This document shows positions 1,013 to 5,275 of a DNA stretch of 64,000 nt, piece after piece; positions within the stretch are counted from its first letter, which is position 1; each line of letters opens with the position of its first letter. Position numbers and translations under genes: made by a program. Source of the DNA: Gammaproteobacteria bacterium (GTDB lineage Bacteria; Pseudomonadota; Gammaproteobacteria; Pseudomonadales; Azotimanducaceae); assembly GCA_026707945.1 (NCBI GenBank), contig JAPOVV010000110.1, positions 1-64,000 of the forward strand. The letters run 5' to 3'. The notes under the pieces were generated by a model that worked only from the letters and a program-made list of their open reading frames with translations, searched no databases and was not told the origin of the DNA.

Positions 1013-2668
1013 ATGGCTACTGTAAACGGCGCGACCTTGATGGCGCGGAGCCTAAAGCAACAAGGTGTCGACTACATGTTTGGCATCGTCGGTTTCCCTG
1101 TTCAGGGGGTGGCCGCGGCTGCCCAAAACGAAGGCATCACCTATATCGGCATGCGCAATGAACAGGCGGCTAGCTACGCAGCCCACGCCGCAGGTTACTT
1201 GACGGGTCGACCACAAGCGTGTCTTACCGTCTCTGGCCCAGGCGTAATCCACGCTTTTCCAGGGCTGGCAAATGCCAAAGAAAACTGCTGGCCGATGATT
1301 TTGATTGGCGGCGCTTCGCCTGTATATCAGAACGGCATGGGCGCTTTTCAGGAGGAGCGGCAGACTGAGTTAGCAGCGCCATACTGTAAATACGCCCACG
1401 ACATCGAACACGCTGAACGCATCCCCTACTATGTAGCGCAAGCCGTACAAAGCTCCATTTATGGTCGACCTGGTCCCGTCTACCTGGACTTTCCTGACGA
1501 CATCATTCGAGCAGAGGTCGAAGAAGACGAGATTCAACCGGTATCGCAAGTGCCTGAACCACCGCGCACTCTAGCCGACCCGGCCGCGATCGAAGGAGCT
1601 CTCGACGCACTCGAGTCTGCTGAGAAACCGTTGGTGGTAGTTGGTAAAGGCATGGCATGGTCGCGGGCCGAAGATGAGGTCCGGGCTTTCATCGAACGCA
1701 CGCAACTTCCGTTCCTTGCTTCACCCATGGGTAAAGGCATACTGCCTGATGACGATCCGTTGTCTGTAGGCGCAGCCAGAAGTACAGCACTCCGCGAAGC
1801 CGACGTCGTGTTCTTGATGGGAGCGAGACTTAATTGGATCATGCACTTTGGACTGCCGCCACGCTTTAACAAAGATGTGCGCGTTATCCAACTCGACATT
1901 AATCCTGAAGAGATTGGTCGCAACGTCCAATCGGAGATTGCATTGGTCGGTGATGGAAAAGCCATCACACAGCAACTAAACACAGCGCTCGGGAACAGAC
2001 AGTGGTTCTATCCAGACGAGACCGCATGGCGACAAACGTTGAAGGCGAAGGCTGACGACAACGCCGAAGCGGTTAAAGGTATGATCGAAGACGACGCCTC
2101 GCCGATGAACTACTACCGTGCGTTTAAGGACATCAACGAGTGGTTACCCGATGATGCAATCATTATCGGCGAAGGTGCCAATACGATGGACATCGGTCGC
2201 ACCCAAATGCTGAACAAGCTGCCACGGCATCGTCTCGATGCTGGCACCTATGGCACGATGGGCATCGGTCTCGGATTTGCGATTGCAGCCGCGGTTACCA
2301 ACCCCGACAAACCGGTTGTATCAGTTCAAGGTGATTCCGCGTTCGGTTTCTCGGGGATGGAAATTGAAACGATGGTTCGCTACAAACTACCAGTCAAACT
2401 GATCGTCTTGAACAATGGCGGCATCGGGGGAGGTATCGGTCCCCTCAAAGAAGGTCAAACCGTACCGCCCGGTATCTTGACTTACGGCGCGCACTACGAA
2501 GGGATGATGGATGCACTCGGTGGCAAAGGCTACTATGTTGAGGATCCTCAAGACCTGCGTGGTGCTTTGGACGATGCAATGGCGTTCGATGGTCCAACGT
2601 TAATCAATGTACCGCTTAATCCTCGTGCTGGTCGTAAGCCGCAACAGTTTGGTTGGCTCACTACATAG
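1013..2668 (+). CDS. Thiamine-diphosphate enzyme, 2-hydroxyacyl-CoA lyase / oxalyl-CoA decarboxylase family
   Basis: This 551-residue protein has the three-domain ThDP fold. The N-terminal part (GIVGFPV, then YIGMRNEQAA with catalytic Glu50, LTVSGPG, ANAKENCWPMILIGGAS, GAFQEE, SSIYGRPGPVYLDFPDD) closely follows eukaryotic HACL1 and bacterial oxalyl-CoA decarboxylases. The C-terminal ThDP-Mg site is GDSAFGFSGMEIE starting near residue 440, with NNGGIGGG about 30 residues later. HACL enzymes split 2-hydroxyacyl-CoA into formyl-CoA and an aldehyde; oxalyl-CoA decarboxylase yields formyl-CoA. The sequence alone does not settle the substrate. An acyl-CoA epimerase-like gene follows after 40 bp and a PhyH oxygenase lies 1.7 kb downstream, which favours a 2-hydroxyacyl-CoA substrate. 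GGAG is present before the ATG. Confidence 0.88.
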   Translation: MATVNGATLMARSLKQQGVDYMFGIVGFPVQGVAAAAQNEGITYIGMRNEQAASYAAHAAGYLTGRPQACLTVSGPGVIHAFPGLANAKENCWPMILIGGASPVYQNGMGAFQEERQTELAAPYCKYAHDIEHAERIPYYVAQAVQSSIYGRPGPVYLDFPDDIIRAEVEEDEIQPVSQVPEPPRTLADPAAIEGALDALESAEKPLVVVGKGMAWSRAEDEVRAFIERTQLPFLASPMGKGILPDDDPLSVGAARSTALREADVVFLMGARLNWIMHFGLPPRFNKDVRVIQLDINPEEIGRNVQSEIALVGDGKAITQQLNTALGNRQWFYPDETAWRQTLKAKADDNAEAVKGMIEDDASPMNYYRAFKDINEWLPDDAIIIGEGANTMDIGRTQMLNKLPRHRLDAGTYGTMGIGLGFAIAAAVTNPDKPVVSVQGDSAFGFSGMEIETMVRYKLPVKLIVLNNGGIGGGIGPLKEGQTVPPGILTYGAHYEGMMDALGGKGYYVEDPQDLRGALDDAMAFDGPTLINVPLNPRAGRKPQQFGWLTT

Positions 2669-2708: not shown

Positions 2709-3170
2709 ATGAGCGAGCAGAACAAGAACCCGATCGGCAAACTCGATCACATCGGGTTTGCCGTTCATAGCATCGAGGAAGCCCGGAAGTTCTGGGAAGA
2801 CAAGATGGGAGCGACGATGCAGCGAGTGGTTGATCACCACAGCGGCGATTTTCGTCTCGGAATTCTCGACTTACAAGGATTCTGTATCGAGTTACTGGAA
2901 CCGATCAATCCTGATGGGTTCTTACAGAAGTACTTGGAAAAGCGCGGCGAAGGCGTTCACCATATAACGCTTCAAACTCCAGAACTCCGTGACAGGGTCT
3001 CTGCGTTGGAAGAAGAGGGCGTTCGAGTTGTGGACAAGCACTTCGACAAGAGTGAAGGTGGTGTTGACGCATTCATTTCGCCAAAGAGCTCGCATGGCGT
3101 CTTGATTCAGCTAGGCGAAAACGTTGGTCCACTCAATAGTCCGCCTTACTGGGAGTCGGAGGAGCATTGA
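2709..3170 (+). CDS. VOC-fold protein, methylmalonyl-CoA epimerase-like
   Basis: A 153-residue protein spanning one paired VOC domain. KLDHIGFAVHSIEEARKFW at the N-terminus, ELLEPI in the middle, LEKRGEGVHHITLQT, and PKSSHGVLIQLGE at the end reproduce the methylmalonyl-CoA epimerase pattern with its His/Glu metal ligands (His in DHIG, Glu in ELLEP, the second His in HHIT, Gln or Glu in the last strand). Family members epimerise methylmalonyl-CoA or related 2-branched acyl-CoAs using a divalent metal. Since 2-hydroxyacyl-CoA and 2-methylacyl-CoA both have an epimerisable alpha carbon, a role beside the upstream lyase is plausible but inferred. Its stop codon (TGA 3168-3170) overlaps the TTG start of the next gene. 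Confidence 0.8.
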   Translation: MSEQNKNPIGKLDHIGFAVHSIEEARKFWEDKMGATMQRVVDHHSGDFRLGILDLQGFCIELLEPINPDGFLQKYLEKRGEGVHHITLQTPELRDRVSALEEEGVRVVDKHFDKSEGGVDAFISPKSSHGVLIQLGENVGPLNSPPYWESEEH

Positions 3171-3910
3171 AGCCCACAGCCCCGATTGTCTATTGGCAAC
3201 CCGGATGAACGAGCTGCTTACGGGTTAAAGAATTCCTCTCGACCCGTGCGGTCGAGTTCGAGTCCGCTAACGTCCAAGAAGACGTTAATCGGCAAGCGGA
3301 GCTCGAAGCGCTCGGCTACAGGATCGTACCCATCGTCGCGGTTGGACAACGAGCCGTGCACGGTGTTGATCTACAGCAAGTAGCGGGTCTGCTCGGTCTC
3401 AACTACGATTCAAACCCTGATCTTTCACCAGCGGAACTCATAGTTAGACAGGCCGCACTTCTGTCTATCCTTGATAGTGCGCTAGATCACATCCCAAAGT
3501 CTGCCCACGAAATAAAGATTCCTGGTCGTGATCGAACTGTCTGGAACCTTGTTGAACATATGTGCGAGATCGCGTGTGTCTATCAACGCGTAGTTGAAGG
3601 CACCTCAACATTCGACGCCGCCGCTGCTGACGCAGAAGTTACTGATACATCGACAGGCGAGCAATTACATTCGTCGATTAGCAGACTAACTGCAAAACTG
3701 TCCGTTGAAACTCAAGATTACGAAAGATCTGTTGAAACCTATTTTGGACCCGCATCTCTCCACTACGTACTCGAACGCTGTACCTGGCACATCGCTCAAC
3801 ATCTTCGTCAACTTGCTAGTCTAATGCGCGACATCGACACCGCGATCATGCCTGAAGTCGAAGCCAAATTACTTGACGGGTTACCCATCCCGATCGAGGT
3901 ATGGGACTAA
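3167..3910 (+). CDS. Glutaredoxin-DinB fusion with in-frame TGA at the active-site Cys: candidate selenoprotein
   Basis: Read from TTG 3167 the frame is open to TAA 3908-3910 (247 residues) except for one TGA, codon 14 at 3206-3208. Translation across it gives IVYWQPG-[TGA]-TSCLRVKEFL, a glutaredoxin N-terminus whose first CxxC cysteine is the TGA. The thioredoxin fold continues with VEFESANVQED, a cis-Pro loop RIVPIV (Pro55) and G-VDLQQVAGLLGL to about residue 78. Residues ~90-247 form a DinB-like four-helix domain with His131 (NLVEH) and His208/His212 (WHIAQH), the usual metal triad. GGAGGAG at 3158-3164 precedes the TTG, which overlaps the upstream stop. The same TTGA coupling starts the gene at 45567. 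A hairpin meeting bacterial SECIS rules lies downstream. A gene caller would start at GTG 3356 and lose the redox domain. A nonsense mutation remains the alternative. Confidence 0.75.
3206..3208 (+). other. In-frame TGA, proposed selenocysteine codon
   Basis: The codon replaces the N-terminal cysteine of a glutaredoxin CxxC motif: Pro-Gly precedes and Thr-Ser-Cys follows. It is the only stop in a 248-codon frame that scores as protein on both sides. Cysteine codons TGC and TGT differ from TGA by one base, so a point mutation is possible. Position at the catalytic residue, an intact downstream reading frame and a SECIS-like hairpin favour recoding. Confidence 0.7.
3230..3259 (+). promoter_or_regulatory. 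Candidate bacterial SECIS hairpin
   Basis: A perfect 7-bp stem pairs 3238-3244 (CTCGACC) with 3250-3256 (GGTCGAG) around the 5-nt loop CGTGC at 3245-3249. A short lower helix GAA/TTC (3230-3232 with 3257-3259) is separated by a 5-nt bulge on the 5' side. The loop begins 36 nt after the TGA and has G as its second base followed by U. Published bacterial SECIS rules ask for a G in the first two loop bases and 16-37 nt spacing, so both are met, the spacing near its upper limit. A competing 6-bp helix, 3220-3225 with 3242-3247, also exists. Confidence 0.55.
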
Positions 3911-4336
3911 ATGAGCAACACTGCGCCGAAACGACCAATAGGAGCGAAGAAATTCGTACTTCTGCATCACGGCCGTTGCTATCGAGATTCATTTCATTAC
4001 CGCATCGGTGCAAACGCTGAGATCGTACGCCTTGAAAGCGACGACCTAAGTACGCAACACCCAAACTCGATTGGGATCCAACTGATGGGCGACTTTGACA
4101 AAGAACCGGTGCCAGCCGATCAGTTACAAGCGCTTAAGGACTTACTTCTGGATCTCAAATTGCGTTATCCAGCCGTGCAGATTGGCGCACACCGCCAAGT
4201 CAGGGGTGATCGAAAAACAACTTGTCCTGGCCGTCGATTTCCAATGCGTGAGCTACGAGAGTGGGCGGATACGCACCTTCTGGATCAGCGCGACGATGTC
4301 CTTCGTGAAGTGATCGAATCTCAGTACCGACCTTAA
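3911..4336 (+). CDS. PGRP/Amidase_2-like N-acetylmuramoyl-L-alanine amidase
   Basis: A 141-residue single-domain protein with the amidase_2/PGRP pattern: KKFVLLHH (zinc ligand His19 or His20), SFHYRIGANAEIV, NSIGIQLMGDF, and IGAHRQVRGDRKTTCPG with ligands His94 and Cys105. The family cleaves the lactyl-amide bond between N-acetylmuramic acid and L-alanine. No signal peptide or membrane segment is visible, so it would act on cytosolic muropeptides or be exported by another route. The ATG directly follows the stop of the glutaredoxin-DinB gene (TAAATG), so the two are translationally coupled. The domain is slightly short at the N-terminus compared with AmpD. Confidence 0.75.
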   Translation: MSNTAPKRPIGAKKFVLLHHGRCYRDSFHYRIGANAEIVRLESDDLSTQHPNSIGIQLMGDFDKEPVPADQLQALKDLLLDLKLRYPAVQIGAHRQVRGDRKTTCPGRRFPMRELREWADTHLLDQRDDVLREVIESQYRP

Positions 4337-4378: not shown

Positions 4379-5275
4379 ATGAATATTGCCTCTCAAGGCG
4401 CGCAACCAAATCTCGACGGTCTGATGCAAGATCTCGAAAAATACGACCTGCTTAAGCATGCGCTGGAACTCGACGCATATGGATTGACCGTCATTCCACC
4501 CGAGAAGATGGGCGCCGACAAGGACTTCGTCACGCGCCTACGGGACGCGATCATCCGAACATGTGAAAAACGAAATGACCTAAACATCGGCGATCCCGAT
4601 AACCCGTCTGCTGAGGACGTCAAGAAATCATTCATCAATTCGTGGTACCTGCTTCAAGAGGACGAGGTATTTGTCGAGGCAGCACTCAATCCGCGTGTAC
4701 TAACGATAGCGCGTTGGTTATGTGGTCAAAGCGCCGTTTTAGCGGGACACACTTGGATCATCAAACCTAAAACCAAGCATGGATTGGGATTGCACAGCGA
4801 CGCACACGGGATACCACCGGGGGGTGGGCACATCGCCCACGTGGCAAATCTCTCATGGCTTTGTACCGACTACACGTCCGCGGACGATGGACCCACCGTA
4901 TTCGTACCGGGTAGTCATCGTTACGGCCGTGCGACCTTACCACATGAATCCTCACTCGATGAAACGCCGTTTCCGGTCGTAACGCTCGAAGGGGAAGCAG
5001 GATCACTTGCGGTATGGCATGGATCGACATGGCATGGATCACAACCACGAAAAAACCGTGGGCTTCGCGTGACGTTAGTGCAAGTCTTCATGCGAATGCA
5101 CATGCGACCGATTCACCTGTGGAATCGCGACGAGATCAGCAGTAATCTGCTTGGAAAATACCCAGAACTGGAACGAGTTTTAGGTTTAGAGTCCTTGTAC
5201 CCCTACAAAGAACACAATGACCATCCTGAACGGGTCGCTCCATTTATGAAGACCGGTACGGATCCGTTTGCATAA
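4379..5275 (+). CDS. Phytanoyl-CoA dioxygenase (PhyH) family protein
   Basis: A 298-residue Fe(II)/2-oxoglutarate oxygenase. The jelly-roll core shows the iron facial triad: His139-x-Asp141 in GLHSDAHG, and the distal His219 in STWHGSQ. Arg230 in GLRVTLV is placed to bind 2-oxoglutarate, and PGSHR around 177-181 is the typical loop. The substrate is unknown, since this family hydroxylates acyl-CoAs but also many small metabolites. It lies 42 bp after the amidase and 27 bp before an SMP-30 gene on the same strand. It is one of three PhyH-family genes in the window, the others being at 23458 and 51816; they differ in sequence and are not recent duplicates. Confidence 0.88.
   Translation: MNIASQGAQPNLDGLMQDLEKYDLLKHALELDAYGLTVIPPEKMGADKDFVTRLRDAIIRTCEKRNDLNIGDPDNPSAEDVKKSFINSWYLLQEDEVFVEAALNPRVLTIARWLCGQSAVLAGHTWIIKPKTKHGLGLHSDAHGIPPGGGHIAHVANLSWLCTDYTSADDGPTVFVPGSHRYGRATLPHESSLDETPFPVVTLEGEAGSLAVWHGSTWHGSQPRKNRGLRVTLVQVFMRMHMRPIHLWNRDEISSNLLGKYPELERVLGLESLYPYKEHNDHPERVAPFMKTGTDPFA

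Follow-up and report, generated by a model that had tools for sequence, protein, structure and literature searches.

The locus at positions 3167-3910 on the plus strand raises the question whether a glutaredoxin-DinB reading frame crossed by a single TGA is a broken gene or a gene in which the TGA is read as selenocysteine (Sec). Here, the window denotes the whole 64,000-nucleotide stretch of DNA that was analysed. With the TGA read as a residue, the frame comprises 247 residues and a stop, contains exactly one in-frame TGA and translates as LKPTAPIVYWQPG-U-TSC...EVWD, the TGA being codon 14. This TGA, at 3206-3208, corresponds to the U of a glutaredoxin UxxC motif in the context YWQPG-U-TSC. 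The upstream VOC ORF (2709-3170) ends in a TGA at 3168-3170, so that its stop shares bases with the TTG start at 3167-3169. ORF finding with translation table 11 yields only a 184-aa ORF from GTG 3356, and the glutaredoxin domain is lost. An earlier reading of the letters alone, referred to here as the sequence-only reading, had described a lone TGA on the first Cys of a CxxC motif in an otherwise continuous frame, a TTG start that overlaps the upstream stop with GGAGGAG before it, and an automatic caller that begins at GTG 3356 and drops the redox domain; upon re-reading, we found all of this to be so. Scanning the window for frames split by a TGA yielded 11 candidates, this gene among them; by their coordinates, several of the 11 are adjacent genes in one frame or 5' extensions. 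The features of the region are as follows.

1013-2668, plus strand: thiamine pyrophosphate (TPP) enzyme of the 2-hydroxyacyl-CoA lyase/oxalyl-CoA decarboxylase type, from NCBIfam and PDB matches; a neighbour conserved in the genus.
2709-3170, plus strand: VOC protein, methylmalonyl-CoA epimerase-like (under the cut-off of that model), directly upstream and overlapping.
3158-3164, plus strand: Shine-Dalgarno-like GGAGGAG, read in the sequence.
3167-3910, plus strand: Sec-glutaredoxin-DinB gene, 247 aa, with a TTG start overlapping the upstream stop, from sequence reading, Pfam and alignment.
3188-3352, plus strand: glutaredoxin domain, residues 8-62 (PF00462, 37.8 bits), in which the Pro at residue 55 is taken as the cis-Pro.
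3206-3208, plus strand: TGA read as selenocysteine, residue 14 (U-T-S-C), from codon conservation and Cys in other homologues.
3239-3255, plus strand: predicted bacterial SECIS hairpin, in which 3239-3244 pair with 3250-3255 around the loop CGUGC, from pair counting and covariation; a competing hairpin exists.
3470-3814, plus strand: DinB/STL-type domain, residues 102-216, from a sub-cut-off Pfam match, invariant His and Foldseek; the predicted ligands are His131, His208 and His212.
3911-4336, plus strand: amidase_2 domain protein, the next gene downstream.
4379-5275, plus strand: PhyH (phytanoyl-CoA dioxygenase) family protein (PF05721, 69.1 bits), two genes downstream.

The TGA is conserved. 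The window's family was sampled with 200 genomes out of a larger group. The gene is present in 30 of them, and each of the 30 copies is interrupted just once, by a TGA that occupies the same codon as in the window, with BLAST identities to the window of approximately 38-77%; a Cys form was not found in any of these 200 genomes. Five relatives likewise have the TGA at this codon; they are identical over the 720 bp compared to five genomes of the family sample and are not counted twice beside them. In wider samples, the gene was found in 5/390 genomes of the order (all one-TGA forms and all five also in the family sample), in 2/369 genomes of the class (the window's genome and G120, which has a stop-free Cys form), and, at an E-value of 1e-25, in 2/398 genomes of the phylum, of which one is the window's and the other, G1048, is complete, belongs to a different class and has one TGA. 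Thus, the gene is rare overall. By contrast, in the family of G1048, here the second family, 68/75 genomes carry the gene, each with one one-TGA copy, three of them fragmentary. The position of the TGA was read in 39 of these 68 copies, the three fragments included, and is the same codon in 39/39. In neither family did the genes read (30 and 39, respectively) have other stops or frameshifts. One genome of the second family also has a separate stop-free piece of the 3' half of the gene. In the other homologues read, the six plasmid records described below together with L019, L111 and L112, the Sec column is Cys in 9/9. One scan of viral contigs and one phage tblastn search gave no relatives of the fusion gene. 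A quick tree of the DinB part alone requires two Sec/Cys changes and places the two Sec families in separate groups; a single origin of the Sec form is still conceivable, and several long branches make this tree unsure.

The pattern of substitution around the TGA is that of a constrained gene. Synonymous divergence among six close Sec genes drops to 0.31 across codons 15-31; it is 0.57 for codons 1-13, 0.66 for codons 32-80 and 0.72 for codons 81-215, and the 17-codon stretch with the lowest synonymous divergence begins at codon 13. Among 29 genes of the second family, pairs with the same residue at codons +8 to +16 after the TGA also use the same codon there (identity 1.00, rounded); the value is 0.93 at codon +17 and 0.28 to 0.62 in the next seven codons. 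The signal is weaker in the 30 diverse genes of the window's own family, in which codon identity is 0.54 for codons +1 to +16, 0.49 for +17 to +30 and 0.35 for +31 to +47. Downstream of the TGA, where a decaying gene would be expected to show a pseudogene pattern, the DinB part of the six close genes has a pN/pS of 0.32, i.e. it is under purifying selection. Thus, the conserved TGA, the suppression of synonymous change and the purifying selection together exclude a pseudogene, and we regard pseudogenization and assembly error as effectively excluded explanations of the TGA.

The region after the TGA can form a hairpin with the features of a bacterial SECIS. According to the available text of PMC1088965, a stem-loop immediately 3' of the UGA whose small apical loop contains a G is such a feature; judged from pairing and covariation, the fusion gene has it. 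Counted from the T of the TGA, columns 34-39 pair with columns 45-50, giving six pairs. The cells of these columns are paired in 170/180 cases in the 30 own-family genes and in 168/168 in 28 distinct sequences of the second family versus 17/54 in the nine Cys genes. All six pairs are intact in 62/66 Sec genes (30 from the window's family and 36 from the second, the three fragments being left out) and in 0/9 Cys genes, and the loop contains GUG in 63/66 Sec genes. In alignments of the 30 own-family rows (A2) and of 37 of 58 distinct rows (A5), 94.4% and 95.5% of cells are paired, respectively, versus at most 51.1% and 8.6-52.3% for slid partners; the covariation scores are 0.272 and 0.330, compared to at most 0.119 and 0.110. 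None of 500 shuffles reached the observed covariation score, while 34/500 (A2) and 119/500 (A5) reached the observed number of pairs changed on both sides. A UA/CG exchange at columns 38-46 accounts for 10/16 double-change cells in A5 and may reflect few events. The stem and loop encode Ser-x-Arg in 66/66 Sec proteins and in 0/9 Cys proteins, as expected if the RNA constrains the protein. In three loci (L038, L039 and L042), the six pairs no longer line up in this register; for L038, folding gives a hairpin displaced by a few bases, its loop being GUGC, and L039 and L042 read like L038 at the displaced hairpin.

A second, overlapping hairpin at columns 15-42 is part of the minimum-energy fold of 60 nt of the window (z -1.93 versus dinucleotide shuffles). 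In the 30 own-family rows, 77.3% of its cells are paired and its covariation score is 0.287, which beats the slid controls, and a variant of it has 79.3% of cells paired and a score of 0.281. We set this first SECIS candidate aside in favour of the 34-50 hairpin, which it overlaps, and report both: its covariation is similar to that of the 34-50 hairpin in the same rows, but fewer of its cells pair, and several of its pairs break in the second family, as judged by eye. The free consensus from RNAalifold contains the 35-49 part of the 34-50 hairpin together with a different 5' helix. Compared to synonymous shuffles, the folding energy after the TGA has a z of -1.7 in the window, with 62/1000 shuffles as stable; the mean z is -0.67 in the window's family, the lowest of seven stretches, and -0.30 in the second family, where it is not lower than elsewhere in the gene. 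Rfam gave no match.

The window's genome (G000; 117 contigs, 96% complete) encodes the machinery for Sec incorporation, and profile searches together with ARAGORN recovered selA, selB, selC and selD in it. In comparison with 14 control genomes, SelA (487.7 bits; 2/14 controls) lies close to SelB on the same contig, the SelB C-terminal domain (58.1 bits; 1/14 controls) is in a 638-aa frame, and SelD scores 259.8 bits (2/14 controls over the cut-off). A tRNA-Sec was found with 71.1 bits against a cut-off of 47. Because 5/14 controls also pass this cut-off, the identification by ARAGORN of a tRNA-SeC with anticodon TCA is important. Ten more tRNA-Sec matches in this genome, at 30.7-43.2 bits, are all below the cut-off. 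The SelD match (L016; G000:C31:25158-26054) sits in a 745-aa frame and has the motif MRCGGCGAK in its SelD part; with an N-terminal part that by eye is flavoprotein-like (NADH dehydrogenase-type), the frame looks like an Ndh-SelD fusion of the Cys type, and Ndh-SelD fusions with CxxC are described in the accessible part of PMC2398784. A second, weaker match to the SelD family (L017; G000:C114:322604-323302; 69.4 bits against a cut-off of 125) may be another member of the wider SelD superfamily.

Carriers of the gene generally also have SelB. In the window's family, SelB was matched in 158/200 genomes and in 27/30 carriers; the three carriers with no SelB match are G912 (78% complete), G807 (77%) and G847 (92%). 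In G847 (L052, L071), the absence of a SelB match next to a Sec gene could be an assembly gap. In the second family, SelB was matched in 70/75 genomes and in 63/68 carriers, and the five carriers lacking a match are 60-89% complete. Conversely, SelB is present without the fusion gene in 131/200 genomes of the window's family and in 7/7 non-carriers of the second family. In G1048, a tRNA-Sec (71.2 bits) adjoins SelB, while in the Cys carrier G120 the best tRNA-Sec match, at 49.2 bits, is just over the cut-off.

Based on these comparisons at the sequence level, we consider it almost certain that the TGA at 3206-3208 codes for Sec in a glutaredoxin-DinB fusion protein. Decay of this gene does not fit. 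Because the same stop codon, at the same position and followed by the same RNA signal, is found in two distant bacterial families, the gene looks like a member of an overlooked selenoprotein family.

What would such a protein do? The Pfam Glutaredoxin profile matches residues 8-62 well over its gathering cut-off of 22.9 bits, while DinB_2 (PF12867), at residues 102-216, remains under its cut-off (18.6 versus 24.8 bits). Across 26 aligned homologues, 19 of the Sec type and 7 of the Cys type, the positions invariant in 26/26 include the Sec/Cys column, the second Cys, a putative cis-Pro and three His, i.e. His131, His208 and His212 of the window's protein and the predicted metal ligands. Thus, the two domains with a His triad seen in the sequence-only reading are borne out for the glutaredoxin and for the triad, while for the DinB domain the Pfam match is sub-cut-off. 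Residue 55 is the Pro that we take to be the cis-Pro of the glutaredoxin fold. For the N-terminal part, the solved structures closest in sequence are 7c10 and 7c12, both entries named 'Glutaredoxin' and presumably from a bacterium with a selenoprotein glutaredoxin. An AlphaFold model based on six sequences has good confidence over most of the DinB domain but is poor over the glutaredoxin domain (mean pLDDT 66.8). In a Foldseek search against the PDB, the leading matches are the DinB/YfiT proteins 6iz2 and 3dka; the best E-value is 2.6e-3, none being below 0.001. Rows 1-26, at probabilities of 0.97-1.00, are DinB/YfiT proteins, putative metal-dependent or metal-binding entries, or mycothiol maleylpyruvate isomerase, except for 5com, which is uncharacterised, and 2ou6, a putative metalloenzyme (DUF664). 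The list includes the mycothiol-dependent maleylpyruvate isomerase 2nsf and, lower down, the selenoxide synthase OvsA (8u41; E 0.28). The accessible text of PMC5815605 states that membership of the DinB/STL superfamily is defined by structure and not by sequence; our DinB assignment is based on the invariant His triad and the fold search and not on Pfam alone.

In the window's genus, the gene has a conserved neighbourhood. The TPP enzyme gene exceeds the cut-off of the NCBIfam oxalyl-CoA decarboxylase model NF006721 (578.7 versus 557 bits) and is under that of TIGR03254 (535.9 versus 739.4), and the PDB entries that match it best carry the names oxalyl-CoA decarboxylase or 2-hydroxyacyl-CoA lyase/synthase. 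TPP and VOC genes precede the Sec gene in 8/23 loci (the window, L009, L012, L058 and L072-L075); these eight loci are in eight different genomes, all of the window's genus, while the other 15 loci are in other genera. Because the neighbours of the Sec gene differ outside the genus, the cluster suggests, without showing, a role of the fusion protein in 2-hydroxyacyl-CoA metabolism in this genus. An operon link for the Cys form of Variovorax by way of its TPP enzyme was dropped, as this enzyme has 26% identity to the window's lyase. Directly upstream of the lyase-type gene, at 345-827, the window has a glutathione peroxidase gene of the Cys form (ECGYT); Sec (UxxT) is listed in some bacterial GPX-like proteins (PMC13188914 Table 1).

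Taking these data together, we suggest the following model. The UGA would be decoded as Sec by SelA, SelB, SelC and SelD, directed by the hairpin at 3239-3255 with GUG in its apical loop. The product would have an N-terminal glutaredoxin with a Sec14-x-x-Cys17 active site and a C-terminal DinB/STL-type domain with a three-His metal site. The metal-activated DinB domain would attach a low-molecular-weight thiol (probably glutathione) to an electrophilic substrate or remove it from one, while the Sec14-Cys17 pair would reduce or resolve an S-conjugate or mixed disulfide and would itself be recharged by glutathione or thioredoxin reductase. We infer metal-site thiol transfer together with Sec-based reduction because of the features of the metal-dependent bacillithiol transferases of this superfamily: in the part of PMC5815605 available to us, three His are the only fully conserved residues of eight aligned enzymes, and two such enzymes carry a second domain that probably determines the non-thiol co-substrate. 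Our best guess is, therefore, a Sec-dependent, glutathione-linked thiol-transfer or reduction enzyme; that the reaction is thiol transfer coupled to reduction is a tentative proposal, to which we give somewhat less than an even chance. For the window's genus, a link of the substrate to acyl-CoA alpha-oxidation-like metabolism is conceivable, since the Sec gene is co-directional with the 2-hydroxyacyl-CoA lyase-type, VOC and PhyH genes; we regard this link as rather improbable.

Three further readings of the locus, and one of the protein, compete with this model. The one that survives best accepts Sec and has the protein act as an ordinary Sec-glutaredoxin deglutathionylase or reductase, in which DinB is a substrate-binding or dimerisation module with no thiol-transfer chemistry. 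The weak sequence similarity of the DinB part and the variation of the neighbourhoods between genera are in its favour; against it, the three His are invariant in 26/26 aligned homologues, as they are in the active bacillithiol transferases in the available text of PMC5815605, and we consider this reading possible but unlikely. Far less probable is a dual-product gene in which the UGA acts as a selenium-dependent switch, so that cells short of selenium would make a DinB-only protein by internal initiation at GTG 3356, and other cells the full Sec protein: the window has a usable internal start, but nothing besides this start points to a switch. A nonsense mutation would leave a decaying gene, perhaps with the DinB protein alone made from GTG 3356, which is the one product that automatic ORF finding returns; in view of one-TGA copies in 98 genomes of two families, with the same codon in 69/69 read, purifying selection downstream, the suppressed synonymous change after the TGA and the full Sec machinery in the genome, its probability is negligible. 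Equally negligible is decoding of the UGA as a non-Sec residue by code reassignment or a suppressor tRNA, for which we found no support, since the genome has tRNA-Sec, SelA, SelB and SelD, the upstream gene (2709-3170) terminates at TGA, and the position is Cys in homologues and followed by a SECIS-like hairpin.

If the preferred reading of a Sec-dependent thiol-transfer or reduction enzyme is extended to its fullest form, these proteins would be the founding members of a selenoenzyme family with the sites of a Sec-glutaredoxin and of a metal-dependent thiol-S-transferase in one chain, acting as a two-step relay of thiol conjugation or removal and then reductive release; the family would span two proteobacterial lineages that are distant from each other and share the SECIS, and one of these lineages would tie it to 2-hydroxyacyl-CoA/alpha-oxidation metabolism. 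As a whole, this proposal is doubtful. The family adds a new domain pairing, a Sec redox site with a DinB-type metal site, to the prokaryotic selenoproteome and poses a concrete, testable substrate question.

As to known systems, Sec glutaredoxins themselves have been described, and the novelty lies in the architecture. A selenoprotein glutaredoxin (PF00462, UxxC) listed in Table 1 of PMC13188914 shares the glutaredoxin domain and the Sec at the first position of UxxC; that entry does not mention a DinB domain, whereas the window's protein is a 247-aa fusion with Y/F-W-Q-P-G-U-T-S-C. Glutaredoxin-DinB is absent from this table, which comprises 119 prokaryotic selenoprotein families or subfamilies (2026), and 'DinB' is absent from the main text of that paper; nor was it found in the portions of the main text available to us for PMC12013277, PMC1088965, PMC2398784 and PMC9312934. 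The 'Grx-like' entries in the accessible part of PMC2398784 could include fragments of the family. With the window's protein, none of the models in NCBIfam release 20 scores over its cut-off, and the best E-values of five other members are all at least 1.8e-11. The matches listed in the open-access literature, supplements being outside the scope, include no Sec glutaredoxin-DinB fusion. Because the inventory, NCBIfam and the literature searched hold no description of one, as the sequence-only reading had also supposed, we conclude that this is a Sec glutaredoxin in a new two-domain architecture. The UXX-star selenoproteins (NF041212, NF041211 and NF047338) are glutaredoxin-like and listed as (seleno)proteins; the window's protein is far under their cut-offs (32.0/66, 25.0/100 and 24.6/97 bits, respectively), and these models span approximately 70 positions and cover no DinB domain. 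The bacillithiol transferases BstA-H (DinB/YfiT, STL), as presented in the available text of PMC5815605, resemble the window's protein in three conserved His and probably, as judged by Foldseek, in the helical-bundle fold; the window's protein differs in being very distant in sequence, under the PF12867 cut-off, fused to a Sec redox domain and proteobacterial.

A further comparison is with the Cys-type glutaredoxin-DinB proteins. A tblastn search of plasmids gave 13 records (Rhizobium 8, Caballeronia 3, Roseomonas 1 and Variovorax 1) with at least 80% query coverage and 29.6-34.1% identity, i.e. the same two-domain architecture at full length. Some of these records from the four genera are annotated 'DinB family protein' or 'glutaredoxin domain-containing protein'. 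As noted in the accessible text of PMC1088965, selenoprotein genes are often misannotated with the UGA taken as a stop; thus, an entire family can go unnoticed under the label 'DinB protein', its start misplaced. The Cys-type proteins differ from the Sec forms in that the six plasmid records read all have Cys-Ser-Ser-Cys and in that the complete hairpin and Ser-x-Arg are absent. In the second family, two genomes (L111 in G1338 and L112 in G1343) have a stop-free Cys copy in addition to the Sec copy; the Cys copy L111 has CTSC, and Ser-Lys-His in the place of Ser-x-Arg. Together, the matched Cys relatives and these two double-copy genomes provide material for asking what selenium buys.
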